Source of the DNA: Microbotryomycetes sp. JL201
Lineage: Eukaryota; Basidiomycota; Microbotryomycetes
Assembly (NCBI GenBank): GCA_033819885.1
Contig: JAQYUZ010000074.1
Span: 1-34,586 of the forward strand
Direction: 5' to 3'
DNA: 34,586 nucleotides
Shown: one piece after another, positions 2,947 through 24,444 of the stretch
Numbering within the stretch: position 1 is the stretch's first letter
Layout: every line of letters begins with the position of its first letter
The notes under the pieces: generated by a model
Databases searched by the model: none
What the model was told of the DNA's origin: nothing
What the model saw: the letters and a program-made list of their open reading frames with translations, nothing else
Program-made: the position numbers and the translations under genes

Positions 2947-5900
2947 TCAGTCTGCAAACTTTGGCTTTGGTGGCGCAGCTGCTCGACCGCTTGCAGCCTC
3001 TTCGAGCCAGCCGCCCTTTTCCCATTGGCCAGGCACGTACACGTTGTTACTCCGCTCGCGCACATCGCTTGTACCTTTCATCAAAATTCTCAACCTCGTG
3101 AAATCGAGAGGCTTGAGCAGCCAGCCATCAAAGCCAGCATCGACGATCGAATGGCGCTCTCGTTCGGGCAAAGATGCAGAGAAGGCAAAGATGGGCAGTC
3201 GACCGTTGAGCATCGTCGAAGGACGGACACTCAGAGGTGGCGCAGGGTCGAGCAATTCGCGACAACGGATACGTTGAGTCGCCTCGAGACCGCCCATGAT
3301 CTGCAAGACGAAATCGTGAGCGCGTGTCTCCGCCGCCGACGGGAATGCACTCACGGGCATCAGCAGGTCCATCAAGACGAGATCAAAGTCTTGGTCTTGC
3401 TCCAGTAATCGCACGGCCTCTCCACCGTGCTCGACGACTACGACTGTATGACCGTCCTTTTGCAACCGCTTACGAATGATCATTCGGTTGACAAGCTCGT
3501 CCTCGACGACTAGGACTCTCATTGGCGCGATTTTGTCTTCCAGAGTGGCGTCGACGCTCAATTTGCGAACAAACTCGCTCACATGAGTCGGTGAATCTCG
3601 TCGGTGCTGCAACGTCGGCCGTTCGATTGACAGGGGTTTGATCGTCTCTGCTGTCGCAAGCAGAGTTGATTCGACTTGTTCGGCCGTGAGACCAGGGGCA
3701 AGCGAAGGTCTTCTTGGCGAGCTCGCGCCATCTTCAATTTTGATGGCCCGCAATGGCACGCTGCCTTCTTCGACCAAAATTTCGCCGCCGCCGCCTCGTT
3801 CGCCGCTGATCGACATCATGCGTCTCTTGTCCGTTGCCGATGGCGTCACGCTCAGTTTCCTAGCCGTGCCCGTACCGTTTTCAGTGCCGTCGTTGATCGC
3901 AAATTGACCAAAGATCGAATCCGCGCCGTTTGTTCCTCCACTCGATTGCCTTGTTCGAGGTTTTGGTCCAAGTGACGAGCTGATGGCGTCGATCAGCTCA
4001 TTGATGGATCCTCTCGAGCTCTTGCTGTGAGTCGAACCGACGCTGCCAGATCTAGACCTTGCCAAAGCCGTGCTTGGCGCCTCACTGCTTGTCCAAAGTC
4101 CAGTCATTGTCCGACTAGAGCCACTACTCGTTGCCGAAGCATCCTTTATCGACAACCTTCTCAAGTCGTCTTGGGCAGGCAGCCTGAACGGTAAGACAAA
4201 CGTAAACTTGGAGCCTTGACCGAGGTTCGATTCAACGCGAAGTTGGCCACCAAGATTACGAATAATGCGAGCGACGAGCGCCAAGCCGAGTCCGACTGCA
4301 GACTCGGATGGCTGTGCGTCGTCGGACGTCGCTGAGACTTGTTCAAACTCGCGAAAGATGGATTCAAGCTTTGATTCTGACATGCCGACGCCCGTATCGG
4401 TACTGTGAGATAGAGATTGCGTCAAGCACGCGCGCTGTAGATAGTCAAGCGGACCGACTTACATCGAGATGCCGATTCGGATGCTGTCCTGCTTTTTTTC
4501 GAGCGCGTCTTCAACGTCCTGGTCCGCCAACTCTCCCCATTCGACGAGGATGCCTCCCTCTTTCGTATGTTTGACGGCATTGTTGACGACGCTCGTGATG
4601 ATTGTCTTGATCTTGCCTCTGTCCCCCAAGACCGTCCTCGGGGTTCCGGTTGGGTTCTCGACGACTTCAAGTGACAATCCTCTCCTGTTTGCTTCGGCCT
4701 TGTGAACGGCCAACGATTCGCTAATCGTTCTTGGCAAGTCGAAAGGGTCTTGCAAAAACAGCTCTCGTCCTTCTTCAGTTCGAGTCAAGTCGAGCAAGTC
4801 GTTGATGACGTGAATCAAGGATCGACTGGCAGCATGAGACCTCATCAAATTGTCACGCACTTCGTTCGACACTTCACTGTCGAGTGCCTGTTCCAGATAC
4901 TGTATGATGGCGTTCAGAGGCGTCCGAACCTCTTGACTCGCGTTCGCGAGCAAGATGGCACTCATCTGTCTTTGTGCGAGGGCTTCACGCTGCTCTCGCC
5001 ACACAGACTGCATGCGTTCAAAACAATGTCAGGCACTTCCAGCAGGTACATATGCACGTGAAGAGTCTGCATACGATGAATTTGCCATAAACGAGCGCCA
5101 AAGCGCCACCGGTCTCGAGCTGCTCGTCTGTCCAGGCGCGACACTTGCCCAGCACAGTCTCACTCCAGATTCTGAAACTTTTCCTGGGCTCGAGCGATCC
5201 GATCTTGCCATTTTCGTCCACTGCGACAGTCTTATTGGCGTTTGGGTTACCTGCCCATTTGACTTCTTGCAATTGGCCTTTACGGAAAAACACGATAAAG
5301 TCGACTCCGCCACCCGACAATGGGACAGCCAGGGCGCCAGCGATCATTTGGAACGGATGAGGGTAATCGATATCGTCCCAGTCTTTCCGAATGTCTCGGG
5401 TCCACATCATGCTCGTGTACCGTTTCTGGCGCAAGTATTCGAGCACAGCAAGCAACTCTTGCGAGTTTGTCACTGGACCAATGATCTGTTGCCGATGTCA
5501 AAGCAATCAGCCTCTGCGAAACCAGATGGCCTGCGGGGCTCACCTTTGCCTCGTCTCCGATGCTCAGTACACCAAAGTCGGCATCAAACAAGACGAGCAA
5601 ATCTTCGCCCTTTGCGACAATGTAACCACTTGGATTGGCCTCTGTCGGAGCCGTGTTGATCAAACGCCTCGAGTGTAGCCTCTTGGCATACAACAGTCTT
5701 TCGACGTTTCTGGAAATTGTACCGCCCAACAGTTTGCAAAACTGTCTGACAGGGAATGACACGCGGTGACCGAATTTGCCATAACCGTGACAAGCGACCA
5801 AGCCCCACAAATCGCCAAAAGCCGTAATGGAGATTGACATTGAAGCTCTGACTCCCATATTGCCCAAATACTTGATGTGAATCGGACTCATTGCTCTCAA

Positions 5901-7757
5901 ATGGCAGTGAGTCATGTCGAGAGCGTTTTCGACTTCCTCAAGGCTTGTGCAACACATACGGGCCGTCGGTTGATCTCGGTCGTACAAAAGTCGGACTTGA
6001 TTAATCCTGTATAGTTCTCGAGCTTGAGGTGGAATGTCGGACGCTGGAAAATTGAGACCGAGATACAAGTCGTGCGTCTTGGTCCAGTCGACTTGCTCGC
6101 TGACGACTTTGCCGTTCCACTCTTCGTCAAACTGTGCGCTCAAACTCAACGTCAGACTAATTCCAGGTGGCCAAGAAGCCCGTACGCACTTGGTAGACCA
6201 TGCAGCGGTCGAATTGCGTAATCTCTTTGAAAACGCACGCAACGATCTGCCAGGTGCCGTTCAAGGTCAGCAGGATTGATCTGACGACATACAACGCTCG
6301 GTTAGGCGCACCTTGAGAAACGTGCCTAGATCATCCGTCTTGTTGAGCTGGTCAGTGACTTGGCTCAGCAACGCGACGACGTCAACGTGCGGCTGTCCCC
6401 TTTTTGCTCTTCTGGACCTTTTGACTCTTGTCAAAGCCCTCAGAGGTTTGATGATTGACACTGTCGATTCGATCAATTCCTCTTCGGTCGGGTCCATGCC
6501 ATGATCTGAAATGCCACCTCGTTCCTCGGGCAAAAGGTCTTCAGATACGGTCGTGAGGGGATTGACTTGGTCGTCTACCAATTCAAGCTCGACAACGAAC
6601 CGTCGAGGTCTCGTTCGATCTGGCCTGTGCACGGCCGCGTGACAAGTCCACTCGAGTCTGTCTGTCGAATGAGCGTCTGATGACGTGTCTGTGCCGGGCA
6701 AGCCATAGCCTGACAGCGTGATCGTTAAAGGGCCAGTCTCGAGATTGTGAGGGTCCCTCTGTCGATCGTCGAGTGCGTCTAGCGTTTCGAGCAAAAAATC
6801 CAGCTCGCCTTTGACGAGTATGCGCGAGAGGCAGTCAAGGCCGAACAGGAACGTCGGAGTGAGCCCAATGACGAAATGTGCATTCTAAAGCAACGCGAAT
6901 GTGAGTAGATCGTGAAGCTGTTGACTTGAGTCAGTCTTACCTCCGACACCTGAAACACTTTGATCTTTCCGTCGTGGGTTTGTTCAGCGACAATCATGAC
7001 ACCATAAGCCTGCACAGCTCCCGGGGCGTGTATCTCCTGTTGAGACCCGAAAGTCTGGCTTAGTTTCGGGACACCGACAGCTCCCGCGATGACAAACCTC
7101 GTCCTCGCACCGCATGATGGCGCCGTTACGTCCAGTGATGACAAAGTTGTTGCCATCATCTCCAACTTCGTGCTCAAACCGTCTTGTCATGTGCATGCTG
7201 CTGCTACCCCCTCCTTCGGTGGATCCGCCACCGACTGAAGGTTTCAGCGCACCGCCTGCGTAAGGTGACTCGGGTGACCGATCGCCTGCGATCGTGCCGA
7301 GCGCATGTTCCGTCAGGTCGTGTGTCGTTGCCGATGTCGTTTGTTGTGTTGGCTGACGCCGTCTGTGCTGAGCTAAACCTCCCGCACTGTCACCGTCTTG
7401 CCTCGAGCTCGAAGCAGAGCCAGCTGACAGTGGCGGCTCTCTAAGCTTGGATGTGCTTCCTATTGATGCGTTCGTGTATGTTCTAGATCCGACTGTCGGA
7501 CGCTTCGATGTCGCCAGGAGCTGCTGGTTCGATGACGGGACGGTGCCACCCGGAGAAGGATACATGACCGTCCTGATCGGATACATCCTCGTCGTTGAGC
7601 CTGAAGTATTTGTCGCTCCTGAAGGTGGTCTGGCCGGGTCTGCTTGCCTCGTCATGCCTTCTGTCGGTCCAGACGCAGATGTCCACCAAGATGGAGTGTC
7701 ACTGACAGCGCCAGGTGACATGAGCGGGGATATTCGATCATCTTGACCGCCGCTCAT
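2947..7757 (-). CDS. PHY1: Fungal phytochrome hybrid histidine kinase with degenerate H-box
   Basis: A red-light photoreceptor kinase. Nine exons: 7757-7098, 7036-6941, 6884-6312, 6246-6190, 6131-5544, 5485-5075, 5007-4463, 4402-3355 and 3300-2947; introns 54-67 nt; 1443 residues. Domain order: disordered N-terminus; PAS with RCEDEEIHAPGAVQ, where Cys217 is the expected biliverdin ligand; GAF with PASDIPPQARELY (Asp494) and MSPIHIKYLGNMGV; PHY with tongue motif PRKSF (758-762); HisKA; HATPase with N-box VVNNAVKHT, G1 DTGVGM and G2 VGLGLA; receiver with phospho-acceptor Asp1322 (LVLMDLLMP) and Lys (WLLKPLDF). The H-box reads ANASQEVRTPLN, so residue 820 is Gln (codon CAA at 4935-4933) instead of the phospho-accepting His. 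Kinase-core and receiver residues are otherwise kept. The start is the first ATG after which composition becomes protein-like; an upstream in-frame extension to 8036 looks non-coding. Confidence 0.93.
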
Positions 7758-8214: not shown

Positions 8215-9938
8215 CTACGAATCATGCTTTCTGGCAAAGGGCGACCCTCTGGTGACATCAACGTTCATTTGGTCAGCCTCTCGTGACAGCCTCAACAGCT
8301 GCAATAAAAACGAACGTACGTTGGCACCCTCAATTCTGCCCTGTTGCCAAAAGTGTCTTCGCCAGACCCGTTGGCCAGCATGCGGGCCAAGTCAGAGTGC
8401 TTCGAGTCACCGTTTGCAGCTACGCGAAGCCGATGAGGTGGATCTGCCGTAGCAGGCGCACCGTCGTTCGAAGGAAATGCTGCGAACGGGTTCGTCGCAG
8501 GCAACTGCCCTGTAGATTGTGGCTGCATAGTCATTGCTTCTTGTTGTTGCTGCTGCTGCTGCTGCTGGAGGTACGCCGCTTGCTGCTGTTGTTGCAGTGC
8601 ATAGTATTGGTTCATCTGCTCTTGCTGTTGTTGTTGGAGGTATGCGGCCTGTTGCATCGCCATCAACTGTTGCTGTTGCGCGTAGGCTGCTTGCTGCTCC
8701 ATGGCCTGTTGATACGCATATTGGGCTTGTTGCTGGAACAGGAACAGGAACAGGACGTCAATGCAATGCTGTGGGCGCTTGTAATAGGCCAGACTTGCCT
8801 GCTGCAGCCATGCCATCTGCTGAGCCTGTTGCTGCTGTGCATACCACTCTTGCTGCGAAATGTGACCTGTACTGGCCGCGGTTGACGGCGTTTCGTGAAC
8901 GTCAAACAAGTCGACGTCGGCTTGTTGAGCCTTCATTAGCCGTTGTCTTTCTTCCTCTTCTTCTCTGCTGATCCTCAAAGCTTCTTGTAACTCTCGTTCA
9001 GCTCGTTCCTCGTCCAATTGAGCCTGACTCTTTCCGCCGTTTGACGTCAAAGTTGCAGGTTTCGAGACAGTTGACGCTGATTCCGTCTGGCCCTTTTTCC
9101 AAGGCACTTCAGACTTGAAATTCCTCGGCCTGTCTCTCCAACTTCCTCGCCCGTTCTTTCTTTCATAGTACAGTCTTTCTTCATTGTCCAACAACGCCAT
9201 CAATTCTCTTGCTCTTTCACGAATGTTTGCACCTTGGTCGACATTAAATTCGTCAACGTGTCGGAAATCTTTCAATGATTTGATGACGTTCTTGTTTTCT
9301 AAAAAGTACCGAACAAACAAGCGAGAGCCAAACAAGAGACAATGTTCGATGACGGCGAGCGATTTAAAGACGTGGCGCCACATTTTGCCACTGTCGCTGA
9401 GGCGCTACATTTAAAGAAGCACTTTGATCAGTTCGTGTAGCCTTTGACATCAACGGAGCTTGTCAGTGCGATCGTGTGATCGCTTACCTTGTCGAGCACG
9501 GCAATGATGTCTGCGCAATCGACTCTGTTTGCCAGTCCCGCTTACGTCAGTCCAATCCCAAGCCCCAAATGGTACGTAGTGTCACTAGTGTCACTGTCTT
9601 GTACTGAGCAAACTCAACTCGTTGAATGTCATCTCTGCGACCTGACAGAGCCTGCACGAGACGGCGATGGCGCGTCAGCAGACACGCAAGCTACAAAGAA
9701 ATACATGTCTCTCAGGAGCTGCGACTGACTGATAGTGAGCGGGCCCGTAAGGATCATTTGAGCTCGCGTCGCGCGCCGCAATCGCCGCTGGAGAATTGCC
9801 CTGTCGATATAAACACGCGTTCAGCTATAACCATAGATTGACACACACACATACAACAAGCTGTACCTTGATTGTGTTTTTGGCGGATCGCAACACTGCT
9901 CGCGCCAGGTTCGTTGCGCCGTCCTTGGTGTTACTCAT
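8215..9938 (-). CDS. ENT1: Epsin, ENTH-domain endocytic adaptor
   Basis: A clathrin-mediated endocytosis adaptor that binds PtdIns(4,5)P2 and ubiquitinated cargo at the plasma membrane. Seven exons: 9938-9867, 9800-9730, 9651-9619, 9524-9488, 9404-8799, 8732-8320 and 8248-8215; 421 residues. The ENTH domain is spread over the first five exons. Rebuilt splices give DASSNDPYGP, VAEMTFNE and DKRLSDSGKMWRHVFKSL with the spacing of animal and yeast epsins. Then come a UIM-like helix (ERELQEALRISREE, about 212-225), a DLF motif, a long Gln-rich tract, an NPF motif (about 354-356) for EH-domain partners, and the C-terminus DTFGNRAELRVP. Intron 8798-8733 is GC-AG and has no stop if retained (22 residues). 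Exons 3 and 4 are only 33 and 37 nt, and the donor at 9618 (GTTGAG) is weak. The short last exon, set by donor GTACGT and a CTGAC branch site, is less certain. Confidence 0.87.
8733..8798 (-). other. GC-AG intron in epsin gene
   Basis: Donor CAG|GCAAGT, acceptor TTCCAG, 66 nt. Removing it joins the Gln-rich tract cleanly. It contains no in-frame stop, so retention would insert 22 non-Gln residues. Confidence 0.65.
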
Positions 9939-16323: not shown

Positions 16324-18205
16324 ATGTCGACCACATTATCGACCCCATTGCGTCCACACGGCATGGCGCTTCGCAGCAGCAGCAGCAGCGGCAAACGTGA
16401 GTCGTCCAAGAGCCCGTCCCCGCTCGAGCCTCGCCCGAGGCGCAAGGGCATTCGTAGATCCGTTCGATCGTAGCTGATGCACGCGTCTACTCGGGTCATA
16501 CGACGTACAGTCAACTCTCCAGCCTTGATGAGACCCGATCTCGAGCGATCTGCTACAAACTCGCCTTGGAGCAGGTTCCTCGAGCCGAGCTTGTTCACGG
16601 CCAGGTCCACAACGTCGGCAACCAGGTTCGACAAGGACGATCAGCCGGCGACGGATATCAAGCGAGAGGTTGATACAACGGGCATCTTTACACTCGAGCG
16701 CGAAAACAATCCGTTTGAGCAAAGCTTTTCATACTCAAAGCCCCCGAGCGAAGCCGCAGGGCTCGCGACCGAGTTTGACGACGATCAAGATGCATCGGTC
16801 CAAATCATCAACACTGTCTCGCTGAATTCAATCGCTCCTGAGATGACTGTTGATGACTCGAACGATTTGGTGTCTTCGGCTCGTCGTCGATCGGCCGGCA
16901 TCGGTGGCGCTCCATCTCGCCAGAGTTCGCGCTCGTCTTCGAGCTCAGTCGAGGCCCTGTCGTTATTCTCGGGTTCGACATCTGGGACAGAGCTGACAAA
17001 CGCCGACCTTTCGACCTCGTTGTCGTCTACCAAGCGAGTCGGCAGAGGCCAGGTGTTGCCTTTGTCGTCTTTCGATCGCCTGCATCAGCACCTCGCTGAA
17101 TCAACTCGCGCGACGACTCGAGCGCACTACCAACCTGCCCCGAACCCAATCAGCTTGCATGCGACTCACGCTCTTGCCGACTCGTCGACTTCTATCTTGA
17201 CCGTGAATTCAATTGGCGCAACAACCTCAACCAACGATCGCGGCCTGTTTACAGCTTTACAGCATGGTCCGTCGCAGAGCATGTGCCCAAGTACGATGGC
17301 GTTGGCAGACATCCAAGTTGGACCGGCAGTCGGTGGCGCTGGCCACGACGACGACGACGCTGACGCTCTCCCGCACACGACGAGGACGAGTGGACGAAAA
17401 CGCAAAGCGAGAGCTTTGTTCGATGACTCTGACTTGCCTGCGAGTGTGCTGGAGGACTCGGAAGGCGAACATGTTGAGAATGATGCAGACATGCTCGTTG
17501 GTGTTGTCCAGCGATCGAACTCGTCGTCGTCGCCCCGTCGGGCAAAGAAGCTTGTGTCCAGCATGGCTTCCGGTAGTCATACAACCAGTGGAACTCTCGG
17601 CCCGAGTGACGCGGGCGACAGTGCTGCGGAAGGCGAAGGTGGCGATGCGCCCGTTTCCAAAAAGGAGGGCAAGGCAGCCGCTTTAGAACGCAACAGGCTC
17701 GCTGCGATTCGGAGCAGGCAGAAGAAGAAAGAGCGCGTCGATGGTCTGCAGCAAGGTTAGTGAAATCGTTTGTTTTGATTGCGAGAACTGGACTGAGCTT
17801 TGGCGTATTTGTGCAGCCGTGACGAGTTTGACCACGTCGAATGCCCAGATGCAGACGCAAGCGCTGCAGCTGTACGATGAGGTTCAACAATTGCGTCAAA
17901 TGTTGTCGGCTATGCACCCGCCGACAGAGTGTCAGTGCAAGCACGTGCAAGGTTATCTCGCTCGAGAGCGCAAGGGACAAGGCATTCCGATGATTGAACA
18001 GATGGCCGGAGATGTTTTGACGCGGGCATTTGTGCCTGGTGTGACAGACGAAGTGACTGTCAAACCGAGCTCGCGCGATGGTGATCAAGTCGAGAGGTGG
18101 CGAGAGCAAGTTCGCAGAGAAAAGGAAGAGATGGAGCGCAAGGGCAAAAAAGCCAAAGTTGTTGATGAGTCGCACGCGATTCCGATCAAAAGGTCCAAGC
18201 GATGA
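16324..18205 (+). CDS. Atf1-like bZIP transcription factor (copy 1)
   Basis: A nuclear bZIP regulator of the ATF/CREB class. Exons 16324-16396, 16511-17755 and 17817-18205; introns 114 and 61 nt; 568 residues. The N-terminus SPWSRFLEPSLFT and NNPFEQSF resemble the stress-responsive N-terminal region of Atf1/Aft1 factors. The basic region ALERNRLAAIRSRQKKK shows the N-x7-R signature, followed by a heptad Leu zipper (AVTSLTTSNAQMQTQALQLY, then DEVQQLRQML) created by the second splice. Downstream is CQCKHVQGYLARERKGQGI, then a basic NLS-like end (PIKRSKR). Ser replaces the usual Cys next to the invariant Arg of the basic region. The middle is Ser/Asp-rich and presumably disordered. The next gene encodes a tandem paralogue with the same exon phases, so a duplication is likely. 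Confidence 0.88.
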
Positions 18206-18618: not shown

Positions 18619-20828
18619 ATGTCGACGCGCCCGTTCTCACTGCGACGTAAGTGTATTTGCGGCTCTGACGGCATTGGCACGCGTCCTCGTTGTTGCCAGT
18701 CATGCCAAGATGAGCGCGAGCTGACTACTCGTGGTCTCTTTCTGTGTCGGATGCGCGCCTTTTTGATTGGTCATTGTCAGGCGGGTCCTCCAGCCCGCAC
18801 CCAACGACAACGCTGCCGAGCCTGACAAAGATTGGCTTGTCAACCGCGGCGGCAGCATCGACGACTCCGACAGGCATGCTCTCACCCGCACATCCTGGCA
18901 CGCCTGGCTCGACCTTGCCGGGCACACATTCGCCTGGAGGATCAGCTTGGCAGTCGTATTTGAGCCCGTCGCTTTTCACCGCTTCAGCTCTGCACGCTAG
19001 CACGAGCGATCTCCGAAGTACGAGCAGGCCACCGAGCCCCGGCTCAAATACCGCACACGACAAGCAGCAAGAAGTCAACTTGTTCGAACAAAGCTTTGGC
19101 GGCGCCCATGACGAGCGCATATCCTCGTCGGCCGTGGCGGGAGACATCTCAGGAGCTGCTGTCGCCGCCAAAGTTTCGGCAGTCGGTCGCCATGCTGGAC
19201 TCTCAGGCACAATGACTCCCGGTCGCGAATCCAAGTTGCGCAATGTCAGCTCTCACGTGCAAGCTGACGATGACGACGAAGACGAAGACGAGAACGTGCA
19301 AATGTTGTATGGCACTACACAAGGTGCCCGCGACGAAGCTGCTGCAGCTGCCGCGGCCGCTCTCGTCGGCGTGTTGTCTACTGCCAACCAAGCGCGACCG
19401 GCGCCGCCATCTTCAGCTGCTCCTCATTTGCCTAGACGACCGACGCTGCAAGAGTCGCGGTCGTCTGAACTTTCCATTGCAACTAGCGCAGCGAGCGTCG
19501 CCTCTCGTGTAACGACTTTGACCACGCCAGACCGCTCACCTCCACCATCAGCTATTTCCAAACCGACAGCGAAGGAGGACCATCACGAGCATTTTGACGG
19601 ACGGCATGCTATGAAACTTGATTTGCAAGACTTGTCGCTGACGCTGCCAGGACGTCAGTCGTCATCCTTTGCAAATTCGCCCTTGCCATCGTACCGGACA
19701 CACTTTGTCGGTGACGTCGCCATCGGTAGCGGAACTCGAACGCCAGACGTTATGGGCGGTGCGTCTGGCACATTGACACCGTCGTACCTGACGTCGAGCT
19801 TGACGAGGCTCGTGGATGAACCTGAAAAGGTTTTAAGTCCGCCGCTCGTTGTGGACATGAACGGTTACGTTCCAGCTAGTGCCACCCCAAGCGGACAAAC
19901 GTCAGTCATCTCTCATGTCACGTTGCCAAGTTTGCCGAGTCTGCCGACTTTGACGACGAAGACGACTACAACGACCTCGACGACGACCACAAGGCGTGGC
20001 AGGAAACCAAAATCTACTGCCGTCGCTCAAGAAGCTGTTGACGAAATTGTTGGCGAGCAAGACGACGACGATGACGAGTACACTGAACGACCGTCGGCAG
20101 GGCGACGGAACGGACATCTTGTGCACTCTCCTCAAGCTGGGTCTGTCGACAGAGGTAGTTTGGTGACAAACCTGCACGATGACGTTGACGAGATTGACGC
20201 GACGGCTGCTGGAAGCTCGTTCTTGACAATGGCAACGAACGGGACGGCGAAGCTTAGCGCGCTCGAACGAAACAGGATCGCCGCGAGCAAAAGTAGGAAA
20301 CGCAAGCGGGAGCGCATGCAGAACATGGAACAAGGTACGTGTGCACGGGCATTGGCATAACATCATATTGACGACGCTTCTTCAGTTGCGACGGACTTGT
20401 CGATGGCCAATGCCGCACTCCAAGCGACGGCACTGCAACTCAAGTCTGAATTGTTTGCGCTCCGCTCTCAGTTGACGATGATCCACCATGATCAGTCACG
20501 TTGCGAGTGCGCTCACGTTCAAGGCTACCTGAAGCGTGAGCGTTCTGGTCAAGGCATCTCGGTCATAGTTGAATTGAGCGGAGAGACGTTGAGTAAGCAG
20601 TATGGTGATGTTGGCAAATGGGGAAGGGGAGGTGGTGCAGATGCGAGTGCTGCTGATGATGACGTGGCTGGCGCCGAATTTGTCGAGGGAAGGTCCCCGA
20701 TGGGGACAGCGAAGACGAATGGGAGGACAGGCAGAGGGACTAAGAGGACGAGGGCCAATGCGGCGGCGAGTATGAGCGAGCAAGCTGCGTCACCGCTCGA
20801 TGTTGACGAGCTCGATTCGGACGCATAG
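18619..20828 (+). CDS. Atf1-like bZIP transcription factor (copy 2)
   Basis: A tandem paralogue of the preceding bZIP. Exons 18619-18646, 18781-20334 and 20386-20828; introns 134 and 51 nt; 674 residues. Both genes start MST, carry intron 1 after a few codons in phase 1, and place the last intron in phase 1 right after the basic region. Shared blocks: YLSPSLFTASA, VNLFEQSFGG, basic region ALERNRIAASKSRKRKR, zipper starting VATDLSMANAALQATALQL, and the tail CECAHVQGYLKRERSGQGI. The central part differs: Thr/Ser/Ala-rich, an acidic run near 174-186, and an AT-hook-like RRGRKPKS. The C-terminus ends with a basic RTGRGTKRTR stretch and an acidic tail. The likely role is a stress or developmental regulator binding CRE-like sites as homo- or heterodimer; that is inferred from class only. 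Confidence 0.87.
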
Positions 20829-22598: not shown

Positions 22599-23733
22599 AT
22601 GGGAGCGTACAAGTCGGTCACGTTCAAATTCATGCAGAGTCGATGCTGGCGAGCTGACATGTGCGTCACGCAGGTACATCGAGGAGCTGCACAAGCGCAA
22701 GCAATCCGACGTCCTCAGGTTCTTGTTGCGCGTCAGGTGCTGGGAGTACAGGCAACTCAACGTTTGCCACCGTGCCTCGCGCCCTTCGCGACCTGACAAG
22801 GCTAGGCGCTTGGGATACAAGGTGAGGGCGTTTTCCGCCCTTTGTTGGAACAGCCACGAGCGCGACAGCGACGGCTACGCGGCAGCAGAGCAATCGATGG
22901 CAGCTCTGGCGAGATCTCAACTGGGTCTAATGGTCAACCTGTGTTCCGTTGTACGGCTAGCAGCGCCAGATCAACGCGCAGGTCTGCGACGATCAATTCA
23001 CGCACTTTTCGATACGAGGGCAGCTACACTCTTTTGTGTTTGCCATTCCGCTATGTGCCATGTGCATCTGCCGTCTGCTGCAATCACTGCCTGTAGCTGC
23101 CGCTGTCGTTGCTCGACTTGGTTGCTTTCAAGAATATCCCGCGAGGGTTGCAACTGACGCATTGGCCTCTCATCAGTCCAAGCAGGGCTATGTCATCTAC
23201 CGCATTCGCGTCCGCCGCGGCAACCGCAAGCGCCCGGTCCCCAAGGGTTAGTTTCCTCGGCACACAAGCCGCCATCGCCGTCCTGACACGGTTCTCCTCA
23301 GGTGCCACCTACGGCAAGCCCACGAACCAGGGTGTCAACCAGCTCAAGTTCCAACGCTCGCTTCGCTCGACTGCCGAAGAGCGCGTCGCTCGCCGCTGCG
23401 GTGGCCTGCGCGTCTTGAACTCTTACTGGATCAACCAAGACGGCGTCTACAAGTACTACGAGGTCATCTTGGTCGACCCCTCGCACAAGGCCATTCGCCG
23501 TGATGCTCGCATCAACTGGATCTGCAACCCTGTCCACAAGCGCCGCGAGTCGCGCGGTCTCACTTCGGCCGGCAAGCAGAACCGCGGTATCGGCCGTGGC
23601 CACCGCCACAACCACCAGCCCAAGTCACAGCAGTGGCGCAAGCACAACACGCTCTCGCTCCGCCGCGTACGTTGTCCCTTTCGGTCGTCGCGAACGCGCT
23701 CGCTGACTTTGACATGTTTTGCAGTACCGATAA
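22599..23733 (+). CDS. RPL15: 60S ribosomal protein eL15
   Basis: A large-subunit ribosomal protein and structural component of the 60S particle. Exons 22599-22612, 22674-22821, 23177-23246, 23302-23666 and 23725-23733; 201 residues, close to the usual 204. The sequence is unmistakable throughout: [87 protein letters not shown] and the end [10 protein letters not shown]. The first exon has 14 nt and the last encodes only YR plus stop. Intron 2 (22822-23176) is 355 nt, five to six times longer than most introns in the window. No C/D or H/ACA snoRNA could be identified in it by eye. The gene lies about 11 kb from the telomere. Confidence 0.97.
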
Positions 23734-24444
23734 GCGCGTCGCGTACCCGCGTGTTGATGTCTCTCTATACGACACTACTACAAAATGGGGCGGCGAGCTC
23801 TTTTGCCGAGCGAGCCAAGCGCAGGGTGCAGAGAAAAAGTTGTGCGGTCTCATGGTTTTTACACTCGTGTGCAATCGTCCAGCTTTTTCTTTGCGGCTTG
23901 TGCTTTCTCAGTCTCTATGCGTTTGTTGCCCATGTTGCGAGCGGTTTTCGTGTCGCCTTGTCCGTTGATGACCCTGTCTTGCTGGTCCTGTCCGCTGCTT
24001 CAAACCTGAACGGCTCGAGTCGTCATTCATTTTCTAGTTGTTGTTTTGTATGCTTTTCTCTCAGCCCGCAACGATTTGGGCTAAAAGAACGTCAACCTCT
24101 CGTGCCATTCTTGCTCGATCTAATGTTGAACCTTGACCAGTCTCCTCGATTCAGTACAAAACGTCCGCTCTACCCAGAAGATGAGTCGGGTCGGACATTG
24201 CGTGCGTCGAGAGGTACGGGACTCGCTTGTGTAGGTAGGACTTTGCACGTGTCGAGAGCGATACAGGCTCGACGTGCGTGGCGCGTGCCGGCAGAGGTGA
24301 TTCTATGATACAACATGTAGGTGATCGATGCTACCTAGGCGATCGGTGCTACCGTAAAAGAATTGACCAGGCCAAAAATAAAAGAAAAGGCGCAAAGCTG
24401 GAACGACGAAGAAAACTAAACCCGGCATCACCGATTCACACGTT
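23734..24444. other. Convergent intergenic region
   Basis: 711 bases between the converging eL15 (+) and unknown gene (-), holding both 3' UTRs. A minus-strand copy is not needed to explain the long plus-strand frame that crosses from eL15, which is read-through of its last introns. Near 24323-24352 a 13-base segment GATCGATGCTACC is repeated 17 bases on as GATCGGTGCTACC. The A-rich stretch 24355-24420 may include polyadenylation signals for eL15. No gene is seen. Confidence 0.45.

Follow-up and report, generated by a model that had tools for sequence, protein, structure and literature searches.

For the phytochrome FphA of Aspergillus nidulans, autophosphorylation of the His is reported (PMC10219052), and its receiver is reported to accept phosphate from YpdA in vitro, with HOG activation being proposed to occur via YpdA dephosphorylation (PMC12607886, PMC10219052). 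For fungal phytochromes, the way in which light alters this flow of phosphate is said to be unclear (PMC12607886). In Aspergillus fumigatus, FphA forms heterodimers with its paralog FphB, which is photoinactive and has no biliverdin Cys (PMC12607886). According to a 2019 review, fungal phytochromes have every conserved residue that histidine kinase activity requires (PMC6944256).

The gene described here, phyA of Microbotryomycetes sp. JL201, is an exception to this reviewed rule in an otherwise intact protein, in that its H-box has Gln820 where the phospho-accepting His is expected. Among the matches listed in a search of the open-licence literature, none was recognised as describing a fungal phytochrome whose H-box His has been replaced. 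Phytochromes without kinase output (DrBphP, those of flowering plants) and histidine pseudokinases (DivL, an evolved ChrS variant) are, however, already known. The phytochromes of plants have no receiver, and their kinase-related domain differs at other places too, and DivL of Caulobacter carries a Tyr at the acceptor position, has no receiver of its own and has a sensor different from that of phyA. Flowering-plant phytochromes share with phyA the absence of the H-box His (PMC10219052), but phyA, unlike these, has intact ATP-binding boxes and an intact receiver. DivL is described as using its histidine kinase region without kinase activity, with both kinase and phosphatase activities being absent (PMC4211667). 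DrBphP of Deinococcus radiodurans, a light-activated phosphatase with no detectable kinase activity, has an accepted phosphatase residue at H+4, as does phyA, but is reported to have His in place of both the H+1 residue and the N-box Asn (PMC8292422), whereas phyA is normal at both and has lost the acceptor His instead. A close relative in layout is A. nidulans FphA, which shares with phyA the order PAS-GAF-PHY-HisKA-HATPase-REC, an N-terminal biliverdin Cys and an HPt protein in the genome, and differs by the His that is Gln in phyA. A. fumigatus FphB resembles phyA in being a paralog with half of its function lost beside a photoactive one; yet the halves differ, since FphB lost the Cys and photoactivity, whereas in phyA the Cys is retained and the kinase His is gone.

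The phyA gene and its H-box codon

The window, i.e. the whole stretch of 34,586 nucleotides that was analysed, is an entire contig (C72) of an assembly of 17,152,241 bases (17.15 Mb) in 92 contigs. The features of phyA are as follows (all on the minus strand).

2947..7757, minus: phyA, phytochrome hybrid histidine kinase homologue; 9 exons, 1,443 amino acids, GT-AG splice model with a single open frame
7757-7098, 7036-6941, 6884-6312, 6246-6190, 6131-5544, minus: exons 1-5 of the splice model
5485-5075, 5007-4463, 4402-3355, 3300-2947, minus: exons 6-9 of the splice model
7107..7109, minus: Cys217, the expected biliverdin-binding Cys, kept (aligned with 6bap, phyB and phyD; binding predicted)
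4933..4935, minus: CAA, Gln820, replacing the phospho-accepting His of the H-box (sequence and spliced model; CAC, CAT and CAC in the paralogs)
4930..4932, minus: Glu821 (H+1), position of the kinase general base, kept (spliced model; role reported in PMC3510030 and PMC8292422)
4921..4923, minus: Thr824 (H+4), phosphatase residue of HisKA kinases, kept (spliced model; role reported in PMC3510030)
4900..4902, minus: CAG, Gln831 (H+11), Asn in the three other paralogs (paralog alignment and codons)
4579..4581, minus: Asn938 of the N-box in the ATP-binding domain, kept (spliced model, paralog alignment)
4396..4398, minus: Asp979 of the G1 box (DTGVGM), kept (spliced model, paralog alignment)
3367..3369, minus: Asp1322, receiver phospho-acceptor, kept (spliced model; Pfam Response_reg)

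The first-pass annotation, made from the letters of the window, had reported Gln in place of the H-box His, with the codon CAA at 4935-4933, and this is what both the sequence and the spliced model contain: the H-box reads LLANASQEVRTPLNAII and the context of Gln820 is LLANASQEVRTPLN. It is also correct that the codon is a single-base step away from either His codon, CAC or CAT. An alternative exon supplying a His-containing H-box was considered and rejected, since the Gln820 codon lies within the single open exon 5007-4463 and when the assembly was searched with this exon at the DNA level, only the best candidates being scored, the exon itself and two stretches of phyB (72% and 66%) were the only matches.

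The remaining landmarks claimed by the annotation, i.e. Cys217, the DIP and PRKSF motifs, the N and G1 boxes and Asp1322, keep their positions in the spliced model, where ASDIP is found at residue 492, PRKSF at 758, the N-box at 937-938, DTGVGM at 979 and VGLGLA at 1013. Its remark that one Gly of the G2 box is Ala is accurate for phyA but describes nothing particular to it, because the three paralogs have V, P and S; all four proteins thus lack that Gly, and the change was discarded as a special feature of phyA. All Pfam domains score above cut-off (PAS_2 34.2, GAF 40.6 and PHY 90.9 bits; HisKA 45 bits against a cut-off of 26.9; HATPase_c 69.9 bits; Response_reg also above cut-off), and the Cys217 stretch aligns with the N-terminal biliverdin-Cys stretch CDREPIHIPGAIQ of the solved bacteriophytochrome 6bap, which was among the best 60 of 103 PDB matches to the photosensor query.

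In its domain layout and in its relationship to the three paralogs, phyA appears to be a phytochrome of the group VIII fungal kind. It has features of active HisKA kinases, namely the acidic H+1 residue (Glu821) and the N-box Asn (Asn938), and one of histidine pseudokinases, namely HisKA and HATPase domains that Pfam recognises without the acceptor His; because this His is absent, we do not file phyA as an active histidine kinase. By its Cys, it is not a photoinactive phytochrome of the FphB type either, as Cys217 is present (it is phyC that lacks this residue).

A non-His residue at this position is rare in both comparisons made. Among the HisKA matches in the genome, 16 of 17 have His (or 12 of 13 when the Pfam cut-off is applied), with phyA being the sole exception. 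A search of a bacterial and archaeal collection with the paralog alignment gave 59 kinase hits at 54 loci, all bacterial and 27 of them cyanobacterial; the H-box column is His in 55/55 hits with a residue there and gapped in 4/59, where the hits include kinases neighbouring phytochrome genes and are not independent.

Paralogs and the pattern of change

A PHY profile search of the assembly gave four matches in four genes, i.e. four phytochromes, of which the following three (placed by paralog alignment) accompany phyA.

C39:49212-54225: phyB, on the same strand as phyC
C39:43832-48695: phyC, in tandem with phyB (immediately upstream, same strand)
C64:17558-21745: phyD

The closest paralog of phyA is phyB (63% identical). 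The H-boxes read NASQEVRTP in phyA (CAA), NASHEVRTP in phyB (CAC) and phyC (CAT), and NASHEARTP in phyD (CAC). In a tree of the four paralogs and 13 bacterial rows picked from the 54 loci, phyA groups with the three paralogs of its own genome, in the order ((phyA,phyB),phyC),phyD with SH-aLRT values of 95, 98 and 100 from a quick search; long bacterial branches and a midpoint root make the root unsure, and four of the 13 rows (L064, L088, L102, L104) have no H-box matching the text pattern and may represent other kinase types or cut frames. Whatever the root, however, Gln820 is derived on the phyA branch, because all three paralogs have His. The splice models of phyC and phyD include GC-AG introns, one in phyC (C39:47311-47380) and two in phyD (C64:18787-18842, C64:21630-21684). 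A Cys-to-Ser change in the GAF domain of phyD was rejected as a loss, since the biliverdin Cys of this kind precedes the PAS domain and is kept in phyD.

The annotation had read the conserved boxes as a sign that the loss of His is not part of a general decay, and both relative rates against phyB and counts at conserved columns bear this out. Unique changes in phyA and phyB number 10 vs 11 in the ATPase domain with phyC as the outgroup and 5 vs 5 with phyD, 8 vs 16 and 11 vs 7 in the receiver, and 5 vs 6 and 9 vs 3 in the DHp domain; in the short signalling helix they are 3 vs 0 and 3 vs 1 with the two outgroups. None of these comparisons is significant alone.

For the conserved-column test, the departures of each protein were counted over the columns that are identical in its three paralogs. 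In the photosensor, phyA departs at 8/40 (PAS), 8/61 (GAF) and 3/50 (PHY) columns and phyB at 7/39, 4/57 and 3/50, which gives pooled values of 19/151 and 14/146 (p 0.46). In the remainder of phyA the departures are 2/6 in the signalling helix, 4/34 in DHp (H820Q, N831Q, K857R, E882D), 3/39 in the ATPase domain and 2/42 in the receiver; the corresponding values for phyB are 0/4, 1/31, 0/36 and 3/43. For the transmitter, i.e. signalling helix, DHp and ATPase domain together, phyA thus has 9/79 departures vs 1/71 in phyB (Fisher p 0.019, uncorrected and for a comparison picked after the data were seen), and 7/73 vs 1/67 (p 0.065) for DHp and ATPase alone. A general decay of the kinase half of phyA was rejected, as relative rates and conserved boxes speak against it, although the conserved columns of the transmitter have changed more often than in phyB. 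Sensor and receiver are conserved as in phyB, whereas the transmitter has shifted, mainly in the helices around the H-box. Between phyA and phyB, dN is much lower than dS in DHp (0.22 vs 2.2), the ATPase domain (0.30 vs 1.8) and the receiver (0.36 vs 1.6), but codon tests give no dating, because synonymous divergence between the paralogs is at or near saturation.

Four changes within residues 801-831 (4900-4992, minus strand), namely K801Q and A807Q in the signalling helix and H820Q and N831Q in the first DHp helix, are all to Gln, and N831Q requires two base changes (AAC or AAT to CAG). With the H-box His of EnvZ at position 243 (from a reference title in PMC3510030), Gln831 at H+11 lies, by our count, at the same distance from the H-box His as L254 of EnvZ, reported as one of three major response-regulator specificity residues (PMC2991266).

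The opposite pattern is found in phyC, which has the H-box His but no Cys at the biliverdin position, and in which the phyB stretches DIPAQARELY and SPIHI are replaced. Its departures amount to 20/52 in PAS, 35/88 in GAF, 2/32 in DHp, 11/47 in the ATPase domain and 11/51 in the receiver, or 69/201 in the photosensor vs 13/79 in DHp and ATPase (p 0.003). As its F-box region (FAALHHV) differs from those of the paralogs, the kinase half of phyC is less altered rather than untouched. Loss of His in phyA and loss of light-sensing parts in phyC may mean that sensing and signalling are divided among the paralogs, and the presence of both genes in one genome would make such a division of labour among phytochromes directly testable. 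This paralog context, i.e. three further phytochromes with His, the reverse pattern of phyC and the changes K801Q, A807Q and N831Q, extends an annotation that had been confined to phyA itself.

A profile search of the genome found one HPt match above the Pfam cut-off (C20:55540-55869, motif HFLKGSSAALG) and a weak one below; the single match above cut-off stands beside 13 HisKA matches above theirs. Heme oxygenase matches were found on one contig.

Competing readings of the His loss

Our preferred reading, to which we give somewhat less than an even chance, is that phyA is an intact red-light receptor turned pseudokinase, whose own H-box cannot be loaded and which may drain phosphate from HPt via its receiver. 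By established HisKA chemistry, phosphate from ATP cannot be loaded at the usual site without the H-box His, and phytochromes dimerise. With Gln820, the H-box of phyA would carry no phosphate and autophosphorylation would be lost; receiver Asp1322 would instead take phosphate from HPt, and light would alter either the readiness of this transfer or the speed of hydrolysis (Thr824 is kept), such that a HOG-type relay would be drained, not fed. Draining might be performed by a homodimer or together with a His-bearing paralog. The reverse route from HPt to Asp needs no H-box His, so that acting only as a drain is the simplest way for phyA to stay useful, and this one-way route is the likeliest remaining, given the intact Asp1322 and the single strong HPt match in the genome. 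A sensor and a receiver that are held, with a transmitter that has shifted, would be the expected look of a pseudokinase that uses its receiver. The interpretation given in the first-pass annotation is sound as to a specific loss of His without general decay. It had proposed three ways in which phyA may signal, namely as a scaffold, through a partner that phosphorylates it in trans, or through the photosensory module alone, but had left out this reverse flow from HPt to the receiver. In a receptor that naturally lacks the forward kinase reaction, the HPt to Asp route would be separated from the one that runs from ATP via His to Asp.

Whether hydrolysis could be assisted by a transmitter without His depends on the kinase taken for comparison. 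In CrdS, a conserved Thr/Asn at H+4 is reported as being needed for phosphatase activity, and a His-to-Ala change abolished the kinase but lowered the phosphatase only modestly, whereas a His mutant of PleC lost phosphatase activity too (PMC3510030). With CrdS keeping its phosphatase but PleC losing both activities, a phosphatase step in phyA is, by analogy, plausible but not established; the PleC mutant, and DivL with neither activity, would argue against a drain. So does the retention of Glu821, as the H+1 residue is reported to be needed for kinase but not for phosphatase activity in the kinases tested (PMC3510030, PMC8292422), and a protein acting only as a drain would apparently not require it. 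Unique changes in DHp are more numerous in phyA than in phyB with phyD as the outgroup (9 vs 3), but not with phyC (5 vs 6). Moreover, as paralogs of one genome are compared, Gln820 may have arisen too recently for any decay to be visible, and the transmitter changes may simply reflect relaxed constraint in a gene that is losing its use.

The main alternative, possible though rather unlikely, is a heterodimer, in which phyA would contribute the light sensor, the ATP-binding domain and the receiver, with the His being supplied by phyB or phyC. The ATP-binding boxes kept in phyA point in this direction, as do the photosensory domains of phyA and phyB, which are still similar (identities of 139/200 in GAF and 113/183 in PHY), and the reverse pattern of phyC, with its missing biliverdin Cys and with 35/88 departures in GAF vs 2/32 in DHp. 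There are also precedents: phyC resembles A. fumigatus FphB, which pairs with FphA as a photoinactive partner (PMC12607886), the ChrS pseudokinase is reported to act with HrrS, its heterodimer partner (PMC9491836), and engineered bacteriophytochrome heterodimers regain light-controlled kinase activity (PMC12329595). On the other hand, the kinase half of phyC is changed as well (11/47 departures in the ATPase domain, F-box region FAALHHV), dimerisation may differ with its altered photosensor, the genes phyA and phyB are located on different contigs, and Glu821 would be superfluous in phyA. The retention of Glu821 nevertheless favours neither draining nor heterodimers, since a mixed dimer would use the partner's own H+1 residue. 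In a stricter form, which we regard as doubtful, the His-less light sensor phyA and phyC as a kinase with a degenerate photosensor would be obligate complementary halves of a split phytochrome, pairing directly or through phyB to form a light-regulated histidine kinase. Altogether, the transmitter counts and the caveats attached to phyC pull both ways on the competing readings.

It is also unlikely that His was lost neutrally in this strain or species, i.e. without a new role and either recently or from a transmitter already relaxing in a redundant gene. Such a loss takes one base from either His codon, three paralogs may provide the redundancy, and the intact Glu821, Asn938 and other boxes are as expected shortly after it. 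The excess of transmitter departures (9/79 vs 1/71) can likewise be read as relaxed constraint; the transmitter shift fits a pseudokinase of some age and also relaxed constraint after a neutral loss. However, all nine exons of phyA are open with GT-AG introns, and neither its photosensor nor its receiver is relaxed.

Rather improbable is signalling by the DHp-ATPase core without the usual His phosphate, either as a scaffold or sensor of phosphate state of the DivL type or with another acceptor residue. H820Q and N831Q are both located in the first DHp helix, with H+11 being the position of receiver specificity in EnvZ (PMC2991266); DivL provides a precedent for the former (PMC4211667), and two His-less archaeal kinases reported to still autophosphorylate, one of them at Tyr, for the latter (PMC6944256). 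The receiver Asp kept in phyA, however, suggests that receiver phosphate still matters.

Finally, although a single base decides and the codon is known from the assembly alone, an assembly or sequencing error at a true His codon is very improbable: phyA shows no other anomaly, two bases must change for N831Q close by, and the preceding helix contains K801Q and A807Q. Base errors in assemblies are, moreover, rare.

Neighbouring genes and other kinases

Two further genes were placed in the window.

8295-9383, minus: ENTH-domain (epsin-like) protein, neighbouring gene
23109-24305, plus: ribosomal protein L15e, neighbouring gene

Two adjacent open frames on the plus strand, 16477-17757 and 18744-20357, both have at their end a bZIP match that is weak and does not reach the Pfam cut-off; they are possibly tandem genes for bZIP transcription factors split by an intron. 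Elsewhere in the genome, C41:6072-14284 carries four HisKA matches, two above and two below cut-off, with two per strand in convergent orientation. These look like two dual histidine kinases, a type of protein that is typical of Basidiomycota.
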